44,340 nucleotides of DNA, taken from contig JAIOXK010000009.1 in NCBI GenBank assembly GCA_021741645.1, forward strand, positions 1 to 44,340, in the 5' to 3' direction. The translations under genes were made by a program, and so were the position numbers. The first letter of the stretch is position 1; every line of letters begins with the position of its first letter. The notes under the pieces were generated by a model. It saw only the letters and a list, made by a program, of their open reading frames with translations. It was not told the origin of the DNA and made no database searches. Origin of the DNA: Candidatus Nanopelagicales bacterium (GTDB lineage Bacteria; Actinomycetota; Actinomycetes; S36-B12). Of this stretch, positions 12,671-42,052 are shown piece by piece.

Positions 12671-13999
12671 ATGGTTCCTGCCCCCGACAGCACCATAGGG
12701 GGCGAAGAGCGTGGCGCCTTCATGCACGAGCTGGCAACCAGGCTCTTCCCGATCTGCCGAAGCCTGACGGGGGAAGGGGTTCGGGAGACGCTGGCCATCC
12801 TGCAGGAGCACCTCCCGGCGCTGTCCCTTCATGAGGTTCCCTCGGGTACCGCCGTGTTCGACTGGACTGTCCCGGACGAGTGGAATATCCGAGCCGCGTA
12901 CGTCGAAGGCCCCACGGGTGACCGAGTCATCGACTTCAGCGACTCCAACCTGCACGTCGTCAGCTACTCGATGCCGATCGACATCGAACTCCCCCTGGAG
13001 GAGCTGCAACGCCACCTTCACTCGATCCCCGAGCTCCCCGACGCCATTCCGTACGTCACGAGCTACTACCACCCCACTTGGGGCTTCTGCTTGTCCAACA
13101 ATGTGCGAAACAGCCTTCCGGCCGGCACGTACCGCGCAGTGATCGACAGCACGCTGGCACCGGGGCACCTCACCTACGGGGAGCTCATCATTCCTGGTGA
13201 GTCAACAGACGAAGTGTTCGTCTCCACATACGTCTGCCACCCGTCGATGGCCAACAACGAACTTTCCGGGCCTGTGGTCGCGGTCGCTCTTGCCCAGTGG
13301 GTGGCTTCCCTGCCGCATCGGCGCTACACCTACCGCTTCGTCTTCGCACCAGAGACCATCGGGGCCTTGACCTATGCCTCGCGTAACCTCTCGACGCTGA
13401 AGCTGAACGTCCGGCATGCCATCAACCTCACCTGCATCGGCGATGATGGCGATTACTCCTACCTGGCTTCTCGGCTGGGCAACACTGAGTCGGACCGAAT
13501 CGCCCGACACGTGCTGTCGAGCCGCTCGCCCGCAGTGGAGTACTCCTTCCTCGAGCGCGGCAGCGACGAACGCCAGTATTGCGCTCCCGGGATCGACCTC
13601 CCCATGATCTCACTGATGCGCACCAAGTACGCGCGCTTCCCCGAGTACCACACATCGCTCGACGACCTGAGCTTCGTGACGCCCACGGGTCTTCAGGGCG
13701 GCTACGACATGGTTCGGGAGTTCGTCCGCATCGTCGAGTCGAACATCCATTTTCGCACCACGGTTCTGGGTGAGCCCCAGCTCGGCAGGCGCGGCCTCTA
13801 CCACACGATCCTGCCGCGGGAGATCGAGGATATCGTGCGACTGCGCACGGATGTGCTGGCCTACAGCGACGGAGACCACTCACTCCTCGATATCTCTGAC
13901 TTGCTCAAGGTTCCCTTGGAGACGGTTGTCGAGTTGGCGAGAGAGCTGGCGGAGCATGGGCTTCTCCAGGAGCAAGATTGCACGGTAAAGGAGTCCTGA
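12671..13999 (+). CDS. DUF4910 aminopeptidase-like protein with C-terminal winged helix
   Basis: This 442-residue protein matches the DUF4910/DUF2172 family found in many polysaccharide loci. Visible motifs are LFPICRSLTGEGVRETL (about 25-41), PTWGFC, YVCHPSMANNELSG (zinc-ligand region of an M28-like peptidase fold), FAPETIGAL, GSDERQYCAPG and EYHTSLDDLSFV. The last 80 or so residues look like a winged-helix module (DISDLLKVPLETVVELARELAEHGLL). The fold suggests a zinc hydrolase or amide-processing enzyme, perhaps acting on N-acyl sugars, but its reaction is not established. GGGAG lies 2 bases before ATG 12671; a second in-frame ATG is at 12722. Its TGA overlaps the next ATG (TGATG). Confidence 0.85.
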   Translation: MVPAPDSTIGGEERGAFMHELATRLFPICRSLTGEGVRETLAILQEHLPALSLHEVPSGTAVFDWTVPDEWNIRAAYVEGPTGDRVIDFSDSNLHVVSYSMPIDIELPLEELQRHLHSIPELPDAIPYVTSYYHPTWGFCLSNNVRNSLPAGTYRAVIDSTLAPGHLTYGELIIPGESTDEVFVSTYVCHPSMANNELSGPVVAVALAQWVASLPHRRYTYRFVFAPETIGALTYASRNLSTLKLNVRHAINLTCIGDDGDYSYLASRLGNTESDRIARHVLSSRSPAVEYSFLERGSDERQYCAPGIDLPMISLMRTKYARFPEYHTSLDDLSFVTPTGLQGGYDMVREFVRIVESNIHFRTTVLGEPQLGRRGLYHTILPREIEDIVRLRTDVLAYSDGDHSLLDISDLLKVPLETVVELARELAEHGLLQEQDCTVKES

Positions 14000-14883
14000 T
14001 GTCGGTTGCCTCCCATTACGACGGCAGCGCTGCGGAATACGGCGAGCAGTACAAGGAGGAGAACCTCCTGTCCCTCGACGACTATCCGGCCAACTACTTC
14101 CGCCTGCAGCTGATGCAGCGCCGACTGGGCGAGGTCGGATCGTTATCCGTCTACGAGATCGGTGCTGGAGACGGGACCCCCCTCGCGACGCTCGCTCGGC
14201 AGGGCCTTCGGGTAGCAGGCTGTGACCTCTCCGCCAACATGGTCAAGCAGGCGCGGAACACCTTCGCGGACGCGGGGCTCGATCCGCTCGCAATCGTCCA
14301 CGCGGACATCCTCGATGCCGATGCCCGCCGGGCTAACCTCGAGGCGGTCGGGCAGTTCGATGCCGTCATGGCGTTGGGGGTGATCCCGCATGTGCCGGAC
14401 GACCAGGCCTTTGTCGCCGCGATGTCGGAGTTTCTGGCCCCCGGTGGCCGACTGTTCATGGAGTTTCGCAATTCGCTGTTCTCGCTGTTCACGTTCAATC
14501 GCTATACGAAGGAGTTCGTCCTCGACGAACTCCTTCGTGACGTGTCGCCCGGCATTCGCGCTGTTGTGGCTGCCGACCTCGATCGGCGCCTCGCTGTCGA
14601 CAAACCGCCGATCCGGAAGGGGACTGAGGAGACGCCGGGATACGACGAGATCCTCGCTCGCTTCCACAACCCCTTCGAGCTCTCCGATGTCATCACGGGT
14701 CTGGGCTTCACCGGGGTCCGTTTCCACTGGTATCACTACCACCCTGCCTACCCGATGCTCGCGTCGGAGATCGGCCGCGAGAACTTCAGGCGAGGTGCCT
14801 TCGCGCTCGAGCATGAGGGGTCGTGGCGGGGGATGTTCCTGTGCTCAGCGGGAGTCATCGAAGCCGTGAAGCACGGGGACTAG
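13999..14883 (+). CDS. Class I SAM-dependent methyltransferase
   Basis: This 294-residue protein has the seven-strand methyltransferase core: VYEIGAGDGTPLATLA (motif I, SAM glycines), GCDLSANMV (post-I), FDAVMALGVIPHV and LAPGGRLFMEFRN. The C-terminal 120 residues are family-specific and may bind substrate. ATG 13999 is preceded by AAAGGAG and overlaps the DUF4910 stop by one base; an earlier ATG at 13978 has no such site. It likely modifies a sugar of the glycan, N- or O-linked unknown. Unusually, the coding sequence contains a perfect 15-bp inverted repeat at 14506-14538. Confidence 0.82.
   Translation: MSVASHYDGSAAEYGEQYKEENLLSLDDYPANYFRLQLMQRRLGEVGSLSVYEIGAGDGTPLATLARQGLRVAGCDLSANMVKQARNTFADAGLDPLAIVHADILDADARRANLEAVGQFDAVMALGVIPHVPDDQAFVAAMSEFLAPGGRLFMEFRNSLFSLFTFNRYTKEFVLDELLRDVSPGIRAVVAADLDRRLAVDKPPIRKGTEETPGYDEILARFHNPFELSDVITGLGFTGVRFHWYHYHPAYPMLASEIGRENFRRGAFALEHEGSWRGMFLCSAGVIEAVKHGD
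14506..14538. repeat. Perfect 15-bp inverted repeat inside methyltransferase gene
   Basis: ACGAAGGAGTTCGTC (14506-14520), spacer CTC, then its exact reverse complement (14524-14538). It encodes part of TKEFVLDELLRD. The hairpin also presents AAGGAG in its stem. Confidence 0.85.
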
Positions 14884-18443: not shown

Positions 18444-18469
18444 TGTAATCGGTCATGGCGTTGGTGACA
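18444..18469 (+). repeat. IS481-family left terminal inverted repeat
   Basis: Starts TGTAA and contains GCGTTGGTGACA at 18458-18469. It overlaps the last codons of the transposase. Confidence 0.85.
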
Positions 18470-19394
18470 GGAATCGGGTGGTGGGGAGCTTGCCTCCGAT
18501 GCCGTGGTGGTGGCGCTGATTGTTGTAGTAGTGGAGCCAGGGGTCTAGGGCCTGGCTGCGCGGTTCGTTGGTGGAGTAGGGGCGTCGGTAGGCCCATTCG
18601 GCTTGCAGGGTCCGGTTGAAGCGCTCGACTTTCCCGTTCTGCCAGGGGCAGTGGGGCTTGATGAACAACTGTCGGGCCCCTAGGGCGGCGAGGGCGTTGT
18701 CGCTGATGACCTCGCGGATCGTGACGCCGTGGGAGGCGAAGGCCTCGGCGGCCCGCAGCAGGACCGCGGCTGCGGTCGATCCCTTCTCGTCCGGGTGGAT
18801 CTCGGCGTAGGCCAAGCGGGAGTGGTCGTCGACCACGGCGTGGATGTAGTCGAGGCCGATCCTTTGGTGCTTGAGCTGGTGCTCGCGGCTGATGCCGGGG
18901 CCGTGCGCGCGCCAGCCGCCGCCGTCGGGGATGCGTCCGAGCTTCTTGACGTCCACGTGCACCAGGTCGCCAGGGGCAGCGCGCTCGTAACGCAGCCCGG
19001 TCACCGTAGACGCCCGGATCAGCAGCCCGGTCACCGGATCCAACGCGCCGATCGCGGGCATCGCGTGGCGGGCGCGGATCCTGCTGACCGTGCGCGCAGG
19101 CACGCCGGTGATCTCCGCGATCCGGTCCCGGCCCAGGCGCAGGTCCCGTCGCGCCGCGACCACCGCGGCCTCGACCACCGCCGGCGTGCGGGTCGGGAAC
19201 GACCGGGCCCGGCTGGAGCGGTCGTGCAGGCCCGTCCAGCCCTCCGCGTCGAACCGCGCAACCCAGCGATGGGCGCACTGCCGGGACACTCCCATCTCCT
19301 TGGCCACGTGGGAGACCGGCCGATGGTGCATTCGAACACGCTCGACCAGCAGGCAGCGACCATGAAACGTCTGGTGGGCATTAGCGTGGCTCAT
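18453..19394 (-). CDS. IS481-family transposase
   Basis: The 313-residue protein has an N-terminal helix-turn-helix region (VSHVAKEMGVSRQCAHRWVARF, then a second HTH around GVPARTVSRIRARH) and an rve/integrase-core domain with the DDE triad visible as HVDVKKLG, VISDNALA and NGKVERFNRTL. ATG 19394 has GGAGG six bases upstream; a start at 19433 lacks this. Full length and undisrupted, so the element may still be active. Transcription runs against the cytidylyltransferase and aminotransferase genes. Confidence 0.92.
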   Translation of the reverse strand: MSHANAHQTFHGRCLLVERVRMHHRPVSHVAKEMGVSRQCAHRWVARFDAEGWTGLHDRSSRARSFPTRTPAVVEAAVVAARRDLRLGRDRIAEITGVPARTVSRIRARHAMPAIGALDPVTGLLIRASTVTGLRYERAAPGDLVHVDVKKLGRIPDGGGWRAHGPGISREHQLKHQRIGLDYIHAVVDDHSRLAYAEIHPDEKGSTAAAVLLRAAEAFASHGVTIREVISDNALAALGARQLFIKPHCPWQNGKVERFNRTLQAEWAYRRPYSTNEPRSQALDPWLHYYNNQRHHHGIGGKLPTTRFLSPTP

Positions 19395-19471
19395 CGAGAC
19401 CTCCGGGATGGTGAGTGACGTCGCAATCACCACCGCACCGGAGGTCTCACCTCATTTCAAGCCCCCATGCG

Positions 19472-36794: not shown

Positions 36795-37937
36795 TCAGTC
36801 GGCGAAGGCCTCAACCACGCCTTTGGCAAATGCTGACCAGGTGGGCACGGATTCGGGATCGAGTTCTGCACGCAGCTGAGACAGCGCCTCCGGCGCCGAC
36901 CAACGCTGGAATGCCTGCGCCATCCCTTCATGGCTCATGGCATCCATGCGCTCGGCGCCCCGGCCCTGCATGAGCTCAGCCGCCGGCTGCATCCCGTCGT
37001 AGAGGACGGGCGTGCCAAGTCGGATGGCCTCGAGCACCGGGATGCCGTAACCCTCGACACCGATGGACAGGAAGGCCGAGGATCGGTGCATCAGATCCTC
37101 CACCTCGGCATCACTGGCACCCTCGATCCAGCGCACGCCGCCCTTCTCGACCTCGTCTCGAATCGCTCGGTTGATCCCCTCGTCAGAGTGGGAGTGGCCC
37201 CCGACGAAGAGGAGCTCGGCATCGAGGTTCCCCGCCTCGCGGGCGGCACGGAACGCCTGCGCGATCTCCACCGGTCGCTTGCGTGCCTCAAGGGTGCCCA
37301 AGCGCATGAACAGCGGGTGATCGGGCGGCTCTGGCGCACGGATCGGCACGTGGTCGCCGCCCGGATGGGTAACGGAGATCGGCAGCGCCGGATCTCTCCT
37401 GAGGTCTCGCATGATGGCGTCCTTGGCGGCAGCGCTGATGCAGACGACCGAGCGTGACGTCGCGAGCAGTCGGAAGTACTCACTCGCCCATGGCGCCACG
37501 CCGGGGCGGAATCGATAGTTCGCGGGCTCGGACATCGGGAGGGTGTCGTAGCCGATCATGACCGTCGGCACCCGCTCGGCGAAGTCCTCGAACCTGCGCA
37601 GCACGGTGGGCAGGTAGGACACTTCACCGAGCAGCCAGGCGTCGAAGACCTCGTTGAGTTCGTCGTCAGTCAGCGTTGCGGGATCGAACTCGGCGATCCT
37701 GGCGAGGACGGGCTCGCGCAGGTCGTGCTCGCCGCCGCGCGGCAGGAAGGGAGTCGTGAGGAGGTCTGCCGCCTGCTCTCGGGTCAGCAGGGCGTGGCCG
37801 CCCGCCCAAGGCACCACAAACTCGGCCGTCATCTCGCCAGCGGGCCACTCCTTCGCCAGGTACTGCAGCACTCGCTGAATCCCCGACCCGTGCGGATCGG
37901 TGACGAACTGCTCGAGGTCGATGCCGACGTGCGTCAT
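36795..37937 (-). CDS. Glycosyltransferase family 4
   Basis: This 380-residue GT-B enzyme has GIDLEQFVTDPHGSGIQRVLQYL at the N-terminus, VMIGYDTLPM, VVCISAAAKDAIMRDL, LFMRLGTLEARKRPVEIAQAF, AFLSIGVEGYGIPVLEAIRLGTPVLY (EX7E-type donor site) and a C-terminal helix. The start ATG overlaps the AAA ATPase stop as ATGA, so its translation is coupled to the ATPase and it shares that gene's promoter. Confidence 0.88.
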   Translation of the reverse strand: MTHVGIDLEQFVTDPHGSGIQRVLQYLAKEWPAGEMTAEFVVPWAGGHALLTREQAADLLTTPFLPRGGEHDLREPVLARIAEFDPATLTDDELNEVFDAWLLGEVSYLPTVLRRFEDFAERVPTVMIGYDTLPMSEPANYRFRPGVAPWASEYFRLLATSRSVVCISAAAKDAIMRDLRRDPALPISVTHPGGDHVPIRAPEPPDHPLFMRLGTLEARKRPVEIAQAFRAAREAGNLDAELLFVGGHSHSDEGINRAIRDEVEKGGVRWIEGASDAEVEDLMHRSSAFLSIGVEGYGIPVLEAIRLGTPVLYDGMQPAAELMQGRGAERMDAMSHEGMAQAFQRWSAPEALSQLRAELDPESVPTWSAFAKGVVEAFAD

Positions 37938-39163
37938 TGCGCACCCCTTGGGGGCTTCCTGGTTGATCTTGAGGTCGGGACAGGAAGGTCGGGCATGGTG
38001 CGAATCATGAACTGATCGAAATGAGGAACGGTGAAGGCCGCGTAGCCATGCTCAGGGGTGTACAGCAGGCCCATGCCAATGAGTTCGGCGCGCGTCGGCG
38101 CCACCTGAGGTGACGTGCGCCCCAGTACACGTGCGACATCTGCAGCCTTTTGAGGTTCACTGCCGAGGCTGGCCATTGCTCGCAAGTAGGCCTTCTGCGC
38201 ACCCGTTGTCCGGTCGAGCCGGACCCGGAAGAAGGACGAGTCAAGTTTGGACTCATAGATGTCGAGGGCTTGCTCAACGTCATCACGTGTCACAGGGGAG
38301 GCGTCTGTACTTCGCCAGATTGCGTAGCCGAGCTCCTGAATGAAGTACGGGTATCCGCCGGTGATCTCCCGGGCCCGAGCGAGGGCCTTGGCACTGAAAT
38401 CGACCCCCTCGGCCCGAGCGGGCGCGGCCAGCGCCTCATCGGCATCGTCGCCGTCTAGGACGCCGATCACCGGAAACCGCAGTAGCCGTTCAGCGTAGGA
38501 CTTCGCGTCACCAGCCAGTTCGGCGATCTGCGGCAGGCCCGCGCCGACCATGGTTACCGGCAACTTGCGCTGCACCAAGCGATGAAGGGCCCCAATGACC
38601 GCTTCAAGTTGCGCCGAGCTGAGGAACTGGACCTCGTCGAGCAGCAGAACGACTCCACTGTCGACGCTTGCAGCTGCCTCACCTACGGCAATCAGCAGGT
38701 CAGTGAGATCGAGGCTGAGGTCGCCGTGGTCTGCGTAGCCCTCCGCATGCTCGCTCTGCGTCGAGACCGAGATGGAGCCGTCCGGCTGGAGTCCCAGGGT
38801 GAATGACTGCAGGACTGCAGACGCGAACCGGAGCCGCTCTCCCCATCGTGCTCGAGGACTCAGTTCGAAGAGCGCAGAACGCAGGCCTGCCGCCAGTTCA
38901 CGTCGGAACCCGGCGTCGTCATGCTTGCTGACCTCGAGTTCGACGACGACCCACCCGGCGCCGAGCGCGAGGGAGCGGAACTTCCCGAGCACGACTGTCT
39001 TGCCGACGCCACGAAGTCCGGTGATCACCATCGACTGATCGGTGCGGCCCGACCGCAGACGCCTGAGGAGGATGTCGAACGAATCGAACAGGTCGTCACG
39101 ACCGGTGATGACCTCTGGTTCGGCCCCTGCATTGGGGGTGTAGGGGTTGCGGACGGGGTCCAT
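37934..39163 (-). CDS. AAA (archaeal-ATPase-like/AAA_16) ATPase with C-terminal winged helix
   Basis: This 409-residue protein has VITGRDDLFDSFDILLRRL, Walker A GLRGVGKT (49-56), Walker B LLLDE (173-177), a VGAGLPQI region and a GGYPYFIQELGY lid segment, all typical of STAND-like AAA_16 ATPases. About residues 325-390 (AYLRAMASLGSEPQKAADVARVLG through HGYAAFTVPHFDQFM) look like a winged helix, which suggests DNA or protein binding. No nuclease or effector domain is seen. It probably starts from a leaderless message (TAAGAT 6 bases before the ATG) whose -10 overlaps the nested palindrome upstream. The function is unknown; a regulator or defence role is possible. Confidence 0.85.
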   Translation of the reverse strand: MDPVRNPYTPNAGAEPEVITGRDDLFDSFDILLRRLRSGRTDQSMVITGLRGVGKTVVLGKFRSLALGAGWVVVELEVSKHDDAGFRRELAAGLRSALFELSPRARWGERLRFASAVLQSFTLGLQPDGSISVSTQSEHAEGYADHGDLSLDLTDLLIAVGEAAASVDSGVVLLLDEVQFLSSAQLEAVIGALHRLVQRKLPVTMVGAGLPQIAELAGDAKSYAERLLRFPVIGVLDGDDADEALAAPARAEGVDFSAKALARAREITGGYPYFIQELGYAIWRSTDASPVTRDDVEQALDIYESKLDSSFFRVRLDRTTGAQKAYLRAMASLGSEPQKAADVARVLGRTSPQVAPTRAELIGMGLLYTPEHGYAAFTVPHFDQFMIRTMPDLPVPTSRSTRKPPRGAQ

Positions 39164-39175
39164 GACTTGATCTTA
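39164..39175 (-). promoter_or_regulatory. -10 box TAAGAT of ATPase operon
   Basis: TAAGAT (39175-39170) with a 6-base spacer to ATG 39163. Its first three bases are the last three of the palindrome arm, so a protein bound there would block RNA polymerase. Confidence 0.5.
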
Positions 39176-39227
39176 GGGGTGTTAGGTGACTTTAGCGATT
39201 CTTCCTAAAGTTAGCTAACACCCCTAA
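39173..39227. repeat. Nested inverted repeat upstream of AAA ATPase (candidate operator)
   Basis: The outer arms TTAGGGGTGTTAG (39173-39185) and CTAACACCCCTAA (39215-39227) are perfect 13-bp complements. Inside, ACTTTAG (39189-39195) and CTAAAGT (39205-39211) are a second perfect 7-bp pair with a 9-base loop. GTTAGCTAAC (39210-39219) is also a perfect palindrome. The segment is AT-richer than its surroundings. It fills the gap between the 939-residue GT gene and the ATPase. There is no U-tract after it on -, which argues against a standard terminator. Confidence 0.88.
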
Positions 39228-39232
39228 ACTCG

Positions 39233-42052
39233 TTATCGAGTCTGACCTTGGAGCACTCCGAGGAGTTGCTCGGCGTAGCGCTGAGGCGACTTCTGCTCCA
39301 GATACTCACGGCGCATCGCCTCGCGCTCCTCGAGTGATCGCGGATGCGCGAGGGCCGTCTCGATGGCCTCGGCCACCATCACGGGGCTGACATCGTCGGG
39401 GAGTCGGTCGATGAAGTCCGGGGTGTCCACATCGATCGCCAGGCCCCGATTGGCGATGGCTGGCGTGCCATATGCGGCCATGTCACTCAAGGGGCCGCTG
39501 ACGCCCAGAAGCGGGCTGACGCGCAGCTGGATGCCGAGGTCGACGCCGAGCAGGTAGTCGCGGAAGGTGCTCTCGGGGGCGTAGCCGGTGATGGTGAAGC
39601 CGGTGAGACCAGCCTTCTCGGCCCGCTCGGTGAGTTCAGCTTCGAGGGCCGGTGATGCCGACCCGACGAGATGCAGGTGCACCTTGCGGCCCCACTGCTG
39701 CAGCCAGGCTGCGGATTCCACGACGGTGTCGGTGAGCTTGGTGCGGGTGTCGATGTAGCCGAAGGACGCCAGGTGGATGACGGAGTCGTCCCAGATGCCC
39801 AGGTTGCGCCGCGCCTGGGCGCGCATCGGCTCGGTGAGCCGCTCCACGCTGGGCCGGCGGTAGTTGGCGAAGGGAAGCACCCCGACGGGGCGGTGAGTCT
39901 GGGCGCTGATGGCCGGTGACGCGCAGGGCGAGTGGGTGATGAGCAGGCTGGCCCGCCGGGCGATCTCCCAGAAGCCGGCGTTCTCGAGCAGGCGCATGTC
40001 GTTGACCTGCTCGTCGAGATCCGGGTCAAGGGTGCGTCGGCCACTGCCGCGCAGCATCAACTCCTGCGCGCCCCCGGCACCGCGCAGTGCCATGTAGTAC
40101 TCGATCATCCGCGTGTCATGGCTCAGGGCCACGGTGTCGATTCGATCGAGCAGATCCAGGTGCGGCAGATGGAAGTGGCTGTTGCCCAGGACGGTGAGGA
40201 ATACGTCATGGTCGTCGGCATGGGCCGGCGCGTCGCCCACAGGCCTGCTGGGGATCTCCTCGTCGACTCTCGCGTCGGAGGTCGTGTAAACGGTGACGTC
40301 CGCGATCTCAGCCAGCGCGCTGATCGTCGCGACCGAGTAGTCCGCGACGCCGGACTTCTGCGGTGACCAGGGGGTCGCCACTCCCACGCGCAGTCTGCGT
40401 TCCCCGACATCGATGGTCGCCGGGGGAGGAACTGGAAGATCGTTGGTACTGATGGACTTTGCATGCTTGGTGACGGACTCGGTGACGACCTGCTCCAAGG
40501 GCAGATGCTCGTGCTGGGCGAGCCGTTGCCACTGCTGCTGGGCGGTGTCAGCCTTGTCGCGGTGCTTGCGCACCGCGCGGTCGATGTCGGTCGGCGACGT
40601 CGGGTCGACAAGGAAGGGGCCGGTGCCGATGAGCTCCCGGTGCGAGGGGATGTCAGAGGCGACGATCGGCGCGCCGGCGAGGGCCGCCTCGATGACGGGA
40701 AGGGAGAGCCCTTCATCGAAGGAGGGCACGACCACCAGACTCGCGCTGGCCAGCAGGTCAGCCATCTCCTCGTCAGGTATGCGGTCGAGAGTCGTCGCCT
40801 CACCCGGGCGCATCATCGCTGCGATGGACCAGTGATGGACCCGGACACCCTGCCCAGCCATGCCGAGGACGACGACGTCGCGGGTGGCATCCGCCGAGGT
40901 CGCAGCACCGATACCGGCCAGGCCGCCGAAGGTGTTCTTGCGGGCATCGTCACCGGTCATCAGCACGATCGGGCCGGTGCTGCGATGGGTCGCCGCTGGT
41001 GGCTGGGCATCCTCGGGCAGCACAGCACCGGGCCACGCCACCGTGGCATCGATCTCCCGGCCCAGGATGCGTTCGGTCTCGTCCTTCACCATGTGCGAGA
41101 TGCAGATGAACTCGTCATAGCAGCGCAGGGCATCGAGACCTGCTGCGTACTCCACTCGAGCCGCAACGTGCGGCACGTAGACATCAGGCAGGTGCATCGG
41201 GATGTAGTCGAAGACGATGGCGGCCTTGTGCGCACCGGACGACAGGACGGGGATGAGCGGCTCGGGTGAGGCCGTCATCGGCGAGGGCTCGAGCAGGTAG
41301 GCGTACTGCTCGGTGATGCGGGTGATCTGCCTGCAGGCACCTGAGATCTGCTCAGGTAGATCGGGCAGTGCGCGATCGACGAGGAGGTCGACTCTTTCGT
41401 CGCCGCCAGCTTCTCGCAGCGCGATCACGGCCGCGCTGGCGAAACGGCCGATGCCTCGGGTGCCGAAGGCCGCAGACTGGAGGCTGCGGGCGTCGATGAG
41501 GATCCGGTCACCAGTGGGGGCTGTGCTGGGGCCCTGCTCGCGCGCGCGGGCCAGTCCGCTCAGGGCGAGTCTCGCGGCGAGGGCCCTTCTTGCGCGTCCG
41601 AGTTCGTCCCCCTGGCCGTCCATGCGGCGGTCGAGCATGGCGTCGTCGTCGTAGGTGCCCGAGGCCAGCCACGCAGTGACGTCTGCGGCTGCCCGATCGT
41701 CGAGAGGCTCCCAGCCCAGCCCCGCGGAGGGGACGTCGGGCAGGCCATCGGGGTTGATCCAGCCGATGGGCCTCGGCTCCGCCGCTCCGAGCAGTGGGGC
41801 GGGGGTGAGGTGGCCCATGTTGATCGTGACGTGCTGCAGGTGGCGGCGCCGGGTCAGGCGGCGCGACAGGGGTCCGGGCAGGTGCTGGAGGGCCTGCTTG
41901 GCCCGGAATCGGGCTACGAGGGCGGCCTTGCGGGGCAGCCCGATGGGCTCGGGCTCTGGCTCACGGGCCGCATCACGGGCGGCGTCACGGCGCTGGCGAG
42001 CCTGGTCGAGGACGGCTGACCTCGCCGTCGCACCCGCTGCCTCGTCCTGCAC
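39233..42052 (-). CDS. Two-domain GT4 glycosyltransferase (939 residues)
   Basis: This GTG-start protein joins two GT-B modules. After a charged N-terminal region (about 180 residues), the first reads ILIDARSLQSAAFGTRGIGRF, VFDYIPMHLPDVYV, FICISHMVKDETERIL, and LVVPSFDEGLSLPVIEAALAGAPIVASDIPSHRE. The second begins LRVGVATPWSPQKSGVADYS and ends VSPLLGVSGPLSDMAAYGTPAI. Tandem GT4 enzymes often add two sugars or polymerise a repeat; the second module lacks a clear E-x7-E, since SGPLSDMA stands there. TAGCCT lies 6 bases before GTG 42052, so the transcript is probably leaderless. Confidence 0.88.
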   Translation of the reverse strand: MQDEAAGATARSAVLDQARQRRDAARDAAREPEPEPIGLPRKAALVARFRAKQALQHLPGPLSRRLTRRRHLQHVTINMGHLTPAPLLGAAEPRPIGWINPDGLPDVPSAGLGWEPLDDRAAADVTAWLASGTYDDDAMLDRRMDGQGDELGRARRALAARLALSGLARAREQGPSTAPTGDRILIDARSLQSAAFGTRGIGRFASAAVIALREAGGDERVDLLVDRALPDLPEQISGACRQITRITEQYAYLLEPSPMTASPEPLIPVLSSGAHKAAIVFDYIPMHLPDVYVPHVAARVEYAAGLDALRCYDEFICISHMVKDETERILGREIDATVAWPGAVLPEDAQPPAATHRSTGPIVLMTGDDARKNTFGGLAGIGAATSADATRDVVVLGMAGQGVRVHHWSIAAMMRPGEATTLDRIPDEEMADLLASASLVVVPSFDEGLSLPVIEAALAGAPIVASDIPSHRELIGTGPFLVDPTSPTDIDRAVRKHRDKADTAQQQWQRLAQHEHLPLEQVVTESVTKHAKSISTNDLPVPPPATIDVGERRLRVGVATPWSPQKSGVADYSVATISALAEIADVTVYTTSDARVDEEIPSRPVGDAPAHADDHDVFLTVLGNSHFHLPHLDLLDRIDTVALSHDTRMIEYYMALRGAGGAQELMLRGSGRRTLDPDLDEQVNDMRLLENAGFWEIARRASLLITHSPCASPAISAQTHRPVGVLPFANYRRPSVERLTEPMRAQARRNLGIWDDSVIHLASFGYIDTRTKLTDTVVESAAWLQQWGRKVHLHLVGSASPALEAELTERAEKAGLTGFTITGYAPESTFRDYLLGVDLGIQLRVSPLLGVSGPLSDMAAYGTPAIANRGLAIDVDTPDFIDRLPDDVSPVMVAEAIETALAHPRSLEEREAMRREYLEQKSPQRYAEQLLGVLQGQTR

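Follow-up and report, generated by a model that had tools for sequence, protein, structure and literature searches.

How does a perfect inverted repeat come to lie in the middle of a protein-coding gene, and does it have a role there? The question is raised by a methyltransferase gene of a Candidatus Nanopelagicales bacterium, located in the 44,340-nt stretch of DNA that was analysed as a whole (the window).

A perfect hairpin in codon register

The original prediction described a perfect 15-bp hairpin, with arms three bases apart, inside a methyltransferase coding region. This description proved exact: the two arms are complementary at 15 of 15 positions around a CTC codon (Table 1), and no other of the window's 16 listed inverted repeats (arms of 12 nt or more, distance of at most 60) is 100% complementary. 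The host protein matches the Pfam families Methyltransf_12, Methyltransf_11 and Methyltransf_25, all above their gathering scores, and the Methyltransf_12 match (E-value = 1e−17, 65.1 bits against a gathering score of 30) assigns it to the class I SAM-methyltransferases; none of the equivalog cut-offs of NCBIfam was reached. Both arms and the spacer sit on codon boundaries of the methyltransferase frame and encode TKEFV-L-DELLR (residues 170-180). Three codons of the 3′ arm are infrequent in sampled ORFs of the same genome, namely GAA, CTT and CGT, with shares of 0.20, 0.09 and 0.14 among the codons of their own amino acids.

Table 1. Coordinates of the methyltransferase gene and of the parts of its hairpin
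Feature	Position	Strand	Sequence or product	Basis
Methyltransferase gene	13999..14883	+	class I SAM-dependent methyltransferase, 294 aa	open frame, translation, Pfam profiles, full-length homologues in same-family genomes
5′ arm	14506..14520	+	ACGAAGGAGTTCGTC, codons ACG AAG GAG TTC GTC (TKEFV)	inverted-repeat listing; identical to 5′ arm of L002
Spacer	14521..14523	+	3 nt, codon CTC (L175)	sequence and inverted-repeat listing
3′ arm	14524..14538	+	GACGAACTCCTTCGT, codons GAC GAA CTC CTT CGT (DELLR), includes R180	inverted-repeat listing

The hairpin occupies a mid-gene position, not a gene junction. Upstream of the methyltransferase gene is a gene for a DUF4910/DUF2172 protein with a winged helix, downstream is a DUF6492 protein, and a Polysacc_synt_2-type (polysaccharide-biosynthesis-type) enzyme is encoded nearby on the opposite strand. 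An IS481-family transposase gene (18453-19433; NCBIfam NF033577, above cut-off) is found about 4 kb downstream of the hairpin, and the 5′ end of this ORF is spanned by an 18-nt inverted repeat of 83% complementarity (19396-19448).

Pairing imposed by the encoded peptide

Read as antisense, DELL nearly gives KEF(I/V), and genes with the motif therefore tend to carry an imperfect palindrome; the two codon halves of TKEF(I/V)LDELL are largely complementary around the central leucine codon. Much of the motif is well kept among relatives (T170 in 44/49, F173 in 46/49, I or V174 in 46/49, D176 in 39/49, L178 in 46/48 and L179 in 39/48), K171 (26/49), E172 (34/49) and E177 (23/48) being more variable. 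In terms of pairing imposed by amino acids, the hairpin site ranks first of 258 sites of the gene family, with 7.92 of 15 pairs per relative versus a mean of 4.19 (sd 0.94), and all 17 nearer relatives (at least 56% identical) have an imperfect palindrome at the site, with 7-12 of 15 pairs. The location of the stem is explained by the protein: the encoded peptide imposes a quasi-palindrome. Perfect inverted repeats with both arms coding, situated in conserved parts of protein genes, are also reported for mitochondrial genes of Nematomorpha (PMC6649704). Those palindromes are described as numerous and up to 284 bp long, whereas the methyltransferase hairpin is single, bacterial, has 15-bp arms and was not found in relatives.

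Rarity against codon-preserving controls

Long perfect stems inside genes call for caution, because the encoded peptide can largely dictate them, and their rarity should therefore be judged against codon-preserving controls and relatives. Permutation of synonymous codons within the gene produced a stem of at least 15 bp anywhere in 0 of 3000 trials (the best, of 14 bp, appeared once), and at the hairpin site a perfect stem arose in 25 of 300,000. When the peptide is fixed, one codon choice alone gives the perfect stem, with a probability of about 8.6e−5 according to the codon usage of 117 ORFs.

The same kind of permutation was applied to 361 ORFs of at least 200 aa (450,318 nt) from the window, 20 contigs of the same genome and 18 stretches of four relatives, counting stems with loops of 3-20. 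Two stems of at least 15 bp were observed versus 0.083 predicted; one is the methyltransferase hairpin, and the other is in an ORF of L075 that has no Pfam match and may not be coding. Scaled by length, the permutation leads to an expectation of about 0.0075 stems in the 40,362 coding nt of the window and of roughly 0.4 stems of at least 15 bp in the 2.39-Mb genome. The hairpin is thus rare for its gene and for the window, and unremarkable in a genome-wide scan because the permutation scales to a fraction of one stem per genome. The original assessment that the repeat is far beyond chance holds for the first two scales and lapses at the third.

Stems of at least 13 bp in the 361-ORF set numbered 8 versus about 0.58 expected, and a less strict selection (390 ORFs, minimum 150 aa) yielded 4 stems of at least 15 bp versus 0.033 expected. 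Several stems of the looser set are in short or unverified ORFs, one has its first base at position 3 of its own ORF, and some of these ORFs are probably not genes. One L074 hairpin was counted in two overlapping ORFs, 9-18 nt from an ORF end, and three ORFs of L075 and L066 that match no Pfam family contain four of the stems of at least 13 bp. When four stem-bearing ORFs (two of L075, one each of L066 and L060, L074 being excluded) were compared with Pfam, L060 alone matched, and its stem ends 14 nt before the end of the ORF. Given the double-counted L074 hairpin, the ORFs without a Pfam match and the ORF-end positions, we do not claim an excess of coding stems; a general process behind long coding stems was considered and dropped, most stems being in unverified ORFs or at ORF ends. 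Long stems are common outside ORFs as well, where the examined genomes have 8 of at least 15 bp in 537,437 bases. The L060 stem itself (ORF L060:276-2033, minus strand, from the same genome) is a perfect 13-bp stem with a loop of 16; it lies in the final codons of the ORF and overlaps the end of the encoded PEP-utiliser domain.

Comparison with relatives

Homologues were collected from 99 relatives, with 14 genomes of the genus, 85 of the family, 166 of the order and 396 of the phylum (the groups overlap, and the phylum was sampled), and further from genome contigs, viral contigs and plasmids. No relative listed from any of these sources exceeds 63% identity over the full length, the best full-length relatives being 61-63% identical to the window protein. 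Two fragments are closer, L050 (68% identical), which covers the site, and G027 (86%), a 21-residue C-terminal piece that does not. Of 50 relatives found, the 48 distinct ones that span the site, with 37-69% identity, made up the comparison set.

The full 15-bp stem is present in none of these 48 relatives, in which 4-12 of the 15 positions are Watson-Crick paired; counted outward from the loop, no relative exceeds 11 pairs in a row (L044). L042, L044, L003 and L006 have nearly the same peptide and 10-12 of 15 pairs. Arginine at position 180 is likewise absent from all 48, the usual residues being alanine (22) and valine (10). Nucleotide conservation of both arms, proposed originally as a check, is not observed: as far as these rather distant relatives allow, the arms are not conserved and what persists is a good part of the peptide motif, the outcome that the original prediction had named as its refutation.

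In the phylogenetic tree, an end branch of 0.45 changes per site leads to the window protein alone, whose best identity to any other member is 63%. The nearest relative by tree path is L002. Its 5′ arm is identical at 15 of 15 bases, and its 3′ arm differs at 6 of 15, so that all six arm differences across this long branch are in the 3′ arm. The divergence of the 3′ arm is nonetheless average for the gene, with rank 141 of 288 five-codon windows. Judging from these sequences, the relatives are too distant to tell a single templated event from accumulated drift.

The same homologue as in L002 (G055, from the family of the window genome) was also retrieved as L021 (CAMAWO010000203.1), titled as a Bifidobacterium breve MAG; it lies at the same contig position (4263) and agrees codon for codon over the compared stretch, and the Bifidobacterium breve label is probably wrong. 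L009, L010, L016 and L017 each have two neighbouring methyltransferase paralogues, whose identity to the window protein is about 50-57% for one and 37-40% for the other.

Watson-Crick pairing at the site in relatives

With the window left out, Watson-Crick pairs at the site number 166 in the 17 relatives of at least 56% identity, versus 143.2 expected from their own codon usage; this excess at synonymous positions is the largest of 269 sites. The site ranks 4/256 in the 34 relatives of at least 49.5% identity and 65/243 in the 17 relatives between 49.5 and 56%; the 14 more distant homologues show a deficit (86 pairs versus 96.5 expected), with 203 of 204 sites scoring at least as high. When G-U pairs are also counted, the excess of the near group ranks 25/269. 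Removing redundant rows also lowers the rank. After removal of rows more than 85% identical, the rank is 10/269 at the 56% cut-off, 6 to 12 of 268-269 at cut-offs of 52-60%, and 8/253 at 50%; after removal of rows more than 75% identical, it is 84/267 at the 56% cut-off and 18 to 84 of 259-269 across cut-offs. Because the rank shifts from 1 to 84 of about 267 sites with the choices of identity and redundancy, we regard the excess as weak; shared ancestry, a slight bias from arm copying, or chance could each account for it.

Origin of the perfect pairing

The best explanation, to which we give about even odds, is that the hairpin is a by-product of coding: a protein-imposed quasi-palindrome that was completed in this lineage by codon drift and has no conserved function. 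The TKEF(I/V)LDELL motif provides an imperfect palindrome around the central leucine codon, and in the window sequence codon choices (GTC/GAC, GAA, CTC and CTT) together with one replacement (the usual V/A at 180 by R, encoded by CGT) make the pairing perfect. Neither an RNA nor a DNA function would be needed, and in the mRNA translating ribosomes would presumably open the hairpin like other coding-region stems. Among the sequences examined, that of the window alone is perfectly paired, and the change presumably proceeded toward perfect pairing in the window lineage. Since the divergence of the 3′ arm does not exceed the gene average, ordinary drift suffices, as it also does at the scale of the genome. 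At the same time, drift alone must have been lucky at this site, because a single codon choice gives the stem; the Watson-Crick excess in near relatives (rank 1/269) and the surplus of stems of at least 13 bp (8 versus 0.58) were also counted against it. On balance, ordinary codon drift on a long branch appears slightly more likely than template switching, which follows close behind.

Template switching associated with the quasipalindrome, which would have left a scar without function, is the most serious alternative, and we regard it as a tentative but real possibility. In this case replication would stall at the imperfect palindrome, and the nascent strand would fold back and use one arm as the template for the other; a single event or a few would convert the 3′ arm and bring in the replacement of V/A180 by R (CGT opposite ACG). 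Quasipalindrome mutations of this type are documented in E. coli (PMC7202029), in coding genes of yeast (PMC8604942) and in RNA genes (PMC8794818), the last source describing template switching as a maker of perfect RNA stems. Like the cases described there, the methyltransferase hairpin consists of short arms and a short spacer within coding DNA; its relatives carry imperfect versions and the window a perfect one, and its departures from the nearest relative cluster in one arm. It differs from them in that the comparison is with relatives at 61-63% identity (68% for the fragment), at which event and drift are inseparable.

Several observations agree with the scar put forward in the original prediction. 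A suitable precursor exists in the four relatives with 10-12 of 15 pairs and was presumably present in the ancestor, all arm differences from L002 are confined to one arm, and R180, seen in no relative, is encoded exactly opposite ACG by a codon, CGT, two changes away from GTT, a codon found there. In addition, the Watson-Crick excess of near relatives is weakened when G-U pairs are counted, as DNA templating would give. However, every relative is too remote for several clustered base changes on a short branch to be recognised, the divergence of the 3′ arm does not exceed the gene average, and the excess in near relatives weakens once redundancy is removed. Should template switching prove to be the correct reading, the gene would be a bacterial case in which an error of replication rewrote part of an enzyme motif in a single step. 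It is also conceivable, but rather unlikely, that the motif is a standing hotspot of template switching across the bacterial family, where copying from arm to arm would bias synonymous codons toward Watson-Crick complementarity and sometimes change the protein (V/A180 to R), so that a mutational process and not selection would shape part of an enzyme motif.

Searches for function and dispersed copies

A functional cis-acting mRNA hairpin, which would act in ribosome pausing, RNase processing or differential stability within the operon, is improbable. The stem is strong by prediction: the fold of its 111-nt context has −43.4 kcal/mol (z = −4.57), a stability reached by 0 of 200 shuffles. The alignment of the 17 near rows has a covariation score of 0.148 versus a shuffled mean of 0.121, reached by 0 of 500 shuffles, and a share of paired cells reached by 3 of 500; a single pair (A-U 8, G-C 4) accounts for 4 of the 9 cells in which both sides have changed. 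With 33 distinct rows, cells changed on both sides are still reached by only 2 of 500 shuffles, but the score is reached by 15, the paired cells by 36 and the pairs with two-sided changes by 267 of 500, and related rows exceed such shuffles even without structure. Further arguments against a functional hairpin are the lack of the full stem in all 48 relatives, the modest rank of the near-relative excess when G-U pairs are counted, the below-expected pairing in the 14 distant homologues and the position in mid-gene, away from a gene junction.

The AAGGAG of the 5′ arm was considered as an internal Shine-Dalgarno sequence and rejected, the first start codon after it on the plus strand being a GTG 22 nt downstream. 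Neither strand has a terminator-like site between 13900 and 15000, and no Rfam family reaches its gathering score within the window; terminator, promoter and Rfam-family readings were abandoned, the searches having found nothing. In arm length (at least 8 bp) and spacer (at most 8 bp) the hairpin falls within the range given for bacterial intrinsic terminators and gene-end inverted repeats (PMC6060812), but unlike intrinsic terminators it is mid-gene, is not followed by a T tract and has no terminator-like match on either strand. The translational pause or processing site originally proposed for the AAGGAG-containing stem, with neither a near start codon nor a conserved full stem, has found little positive support.

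Arm copies were sought in the 2.39-Mb assembly (83.7% complete), in which the only exact ones are the two arms themselves. Within two mismatches there are 31 matches to the arm versus 10 to the reversed pattern, and the other 29 listed matches all have two mismatches; this surplus is perhaps due to the arm being built from common codons. A dispersed repeat or family of recognition sites was rejected, the assembly having no further exact copy. A DNA-level element (site-specific inversion, recombination or transposon target, protein-binding palindrome) or an assembly artefact is very improbable: the surplus of near-matches and the IS481-family transposase downstream would fit an element, but each match other than the two arms carries two mismatches, the 33-mer pattern with free spacer has no match in viral contigs, and the gene keeps an intact frame that follows the family motif in register.

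Another inverted repeat in the window

A longer inverted repeat is present at 39173-39227, with 23-nt arms of 91% complementarity and a 9-nt spacer. Two ORFs of the minus strand, 39233-42052 and 37934-39163, flank it and leave a gap of 69 nt; the second of them matches an orc1/cdc6-type model far below the cut-off. This repeat could be a terminator or an operator.
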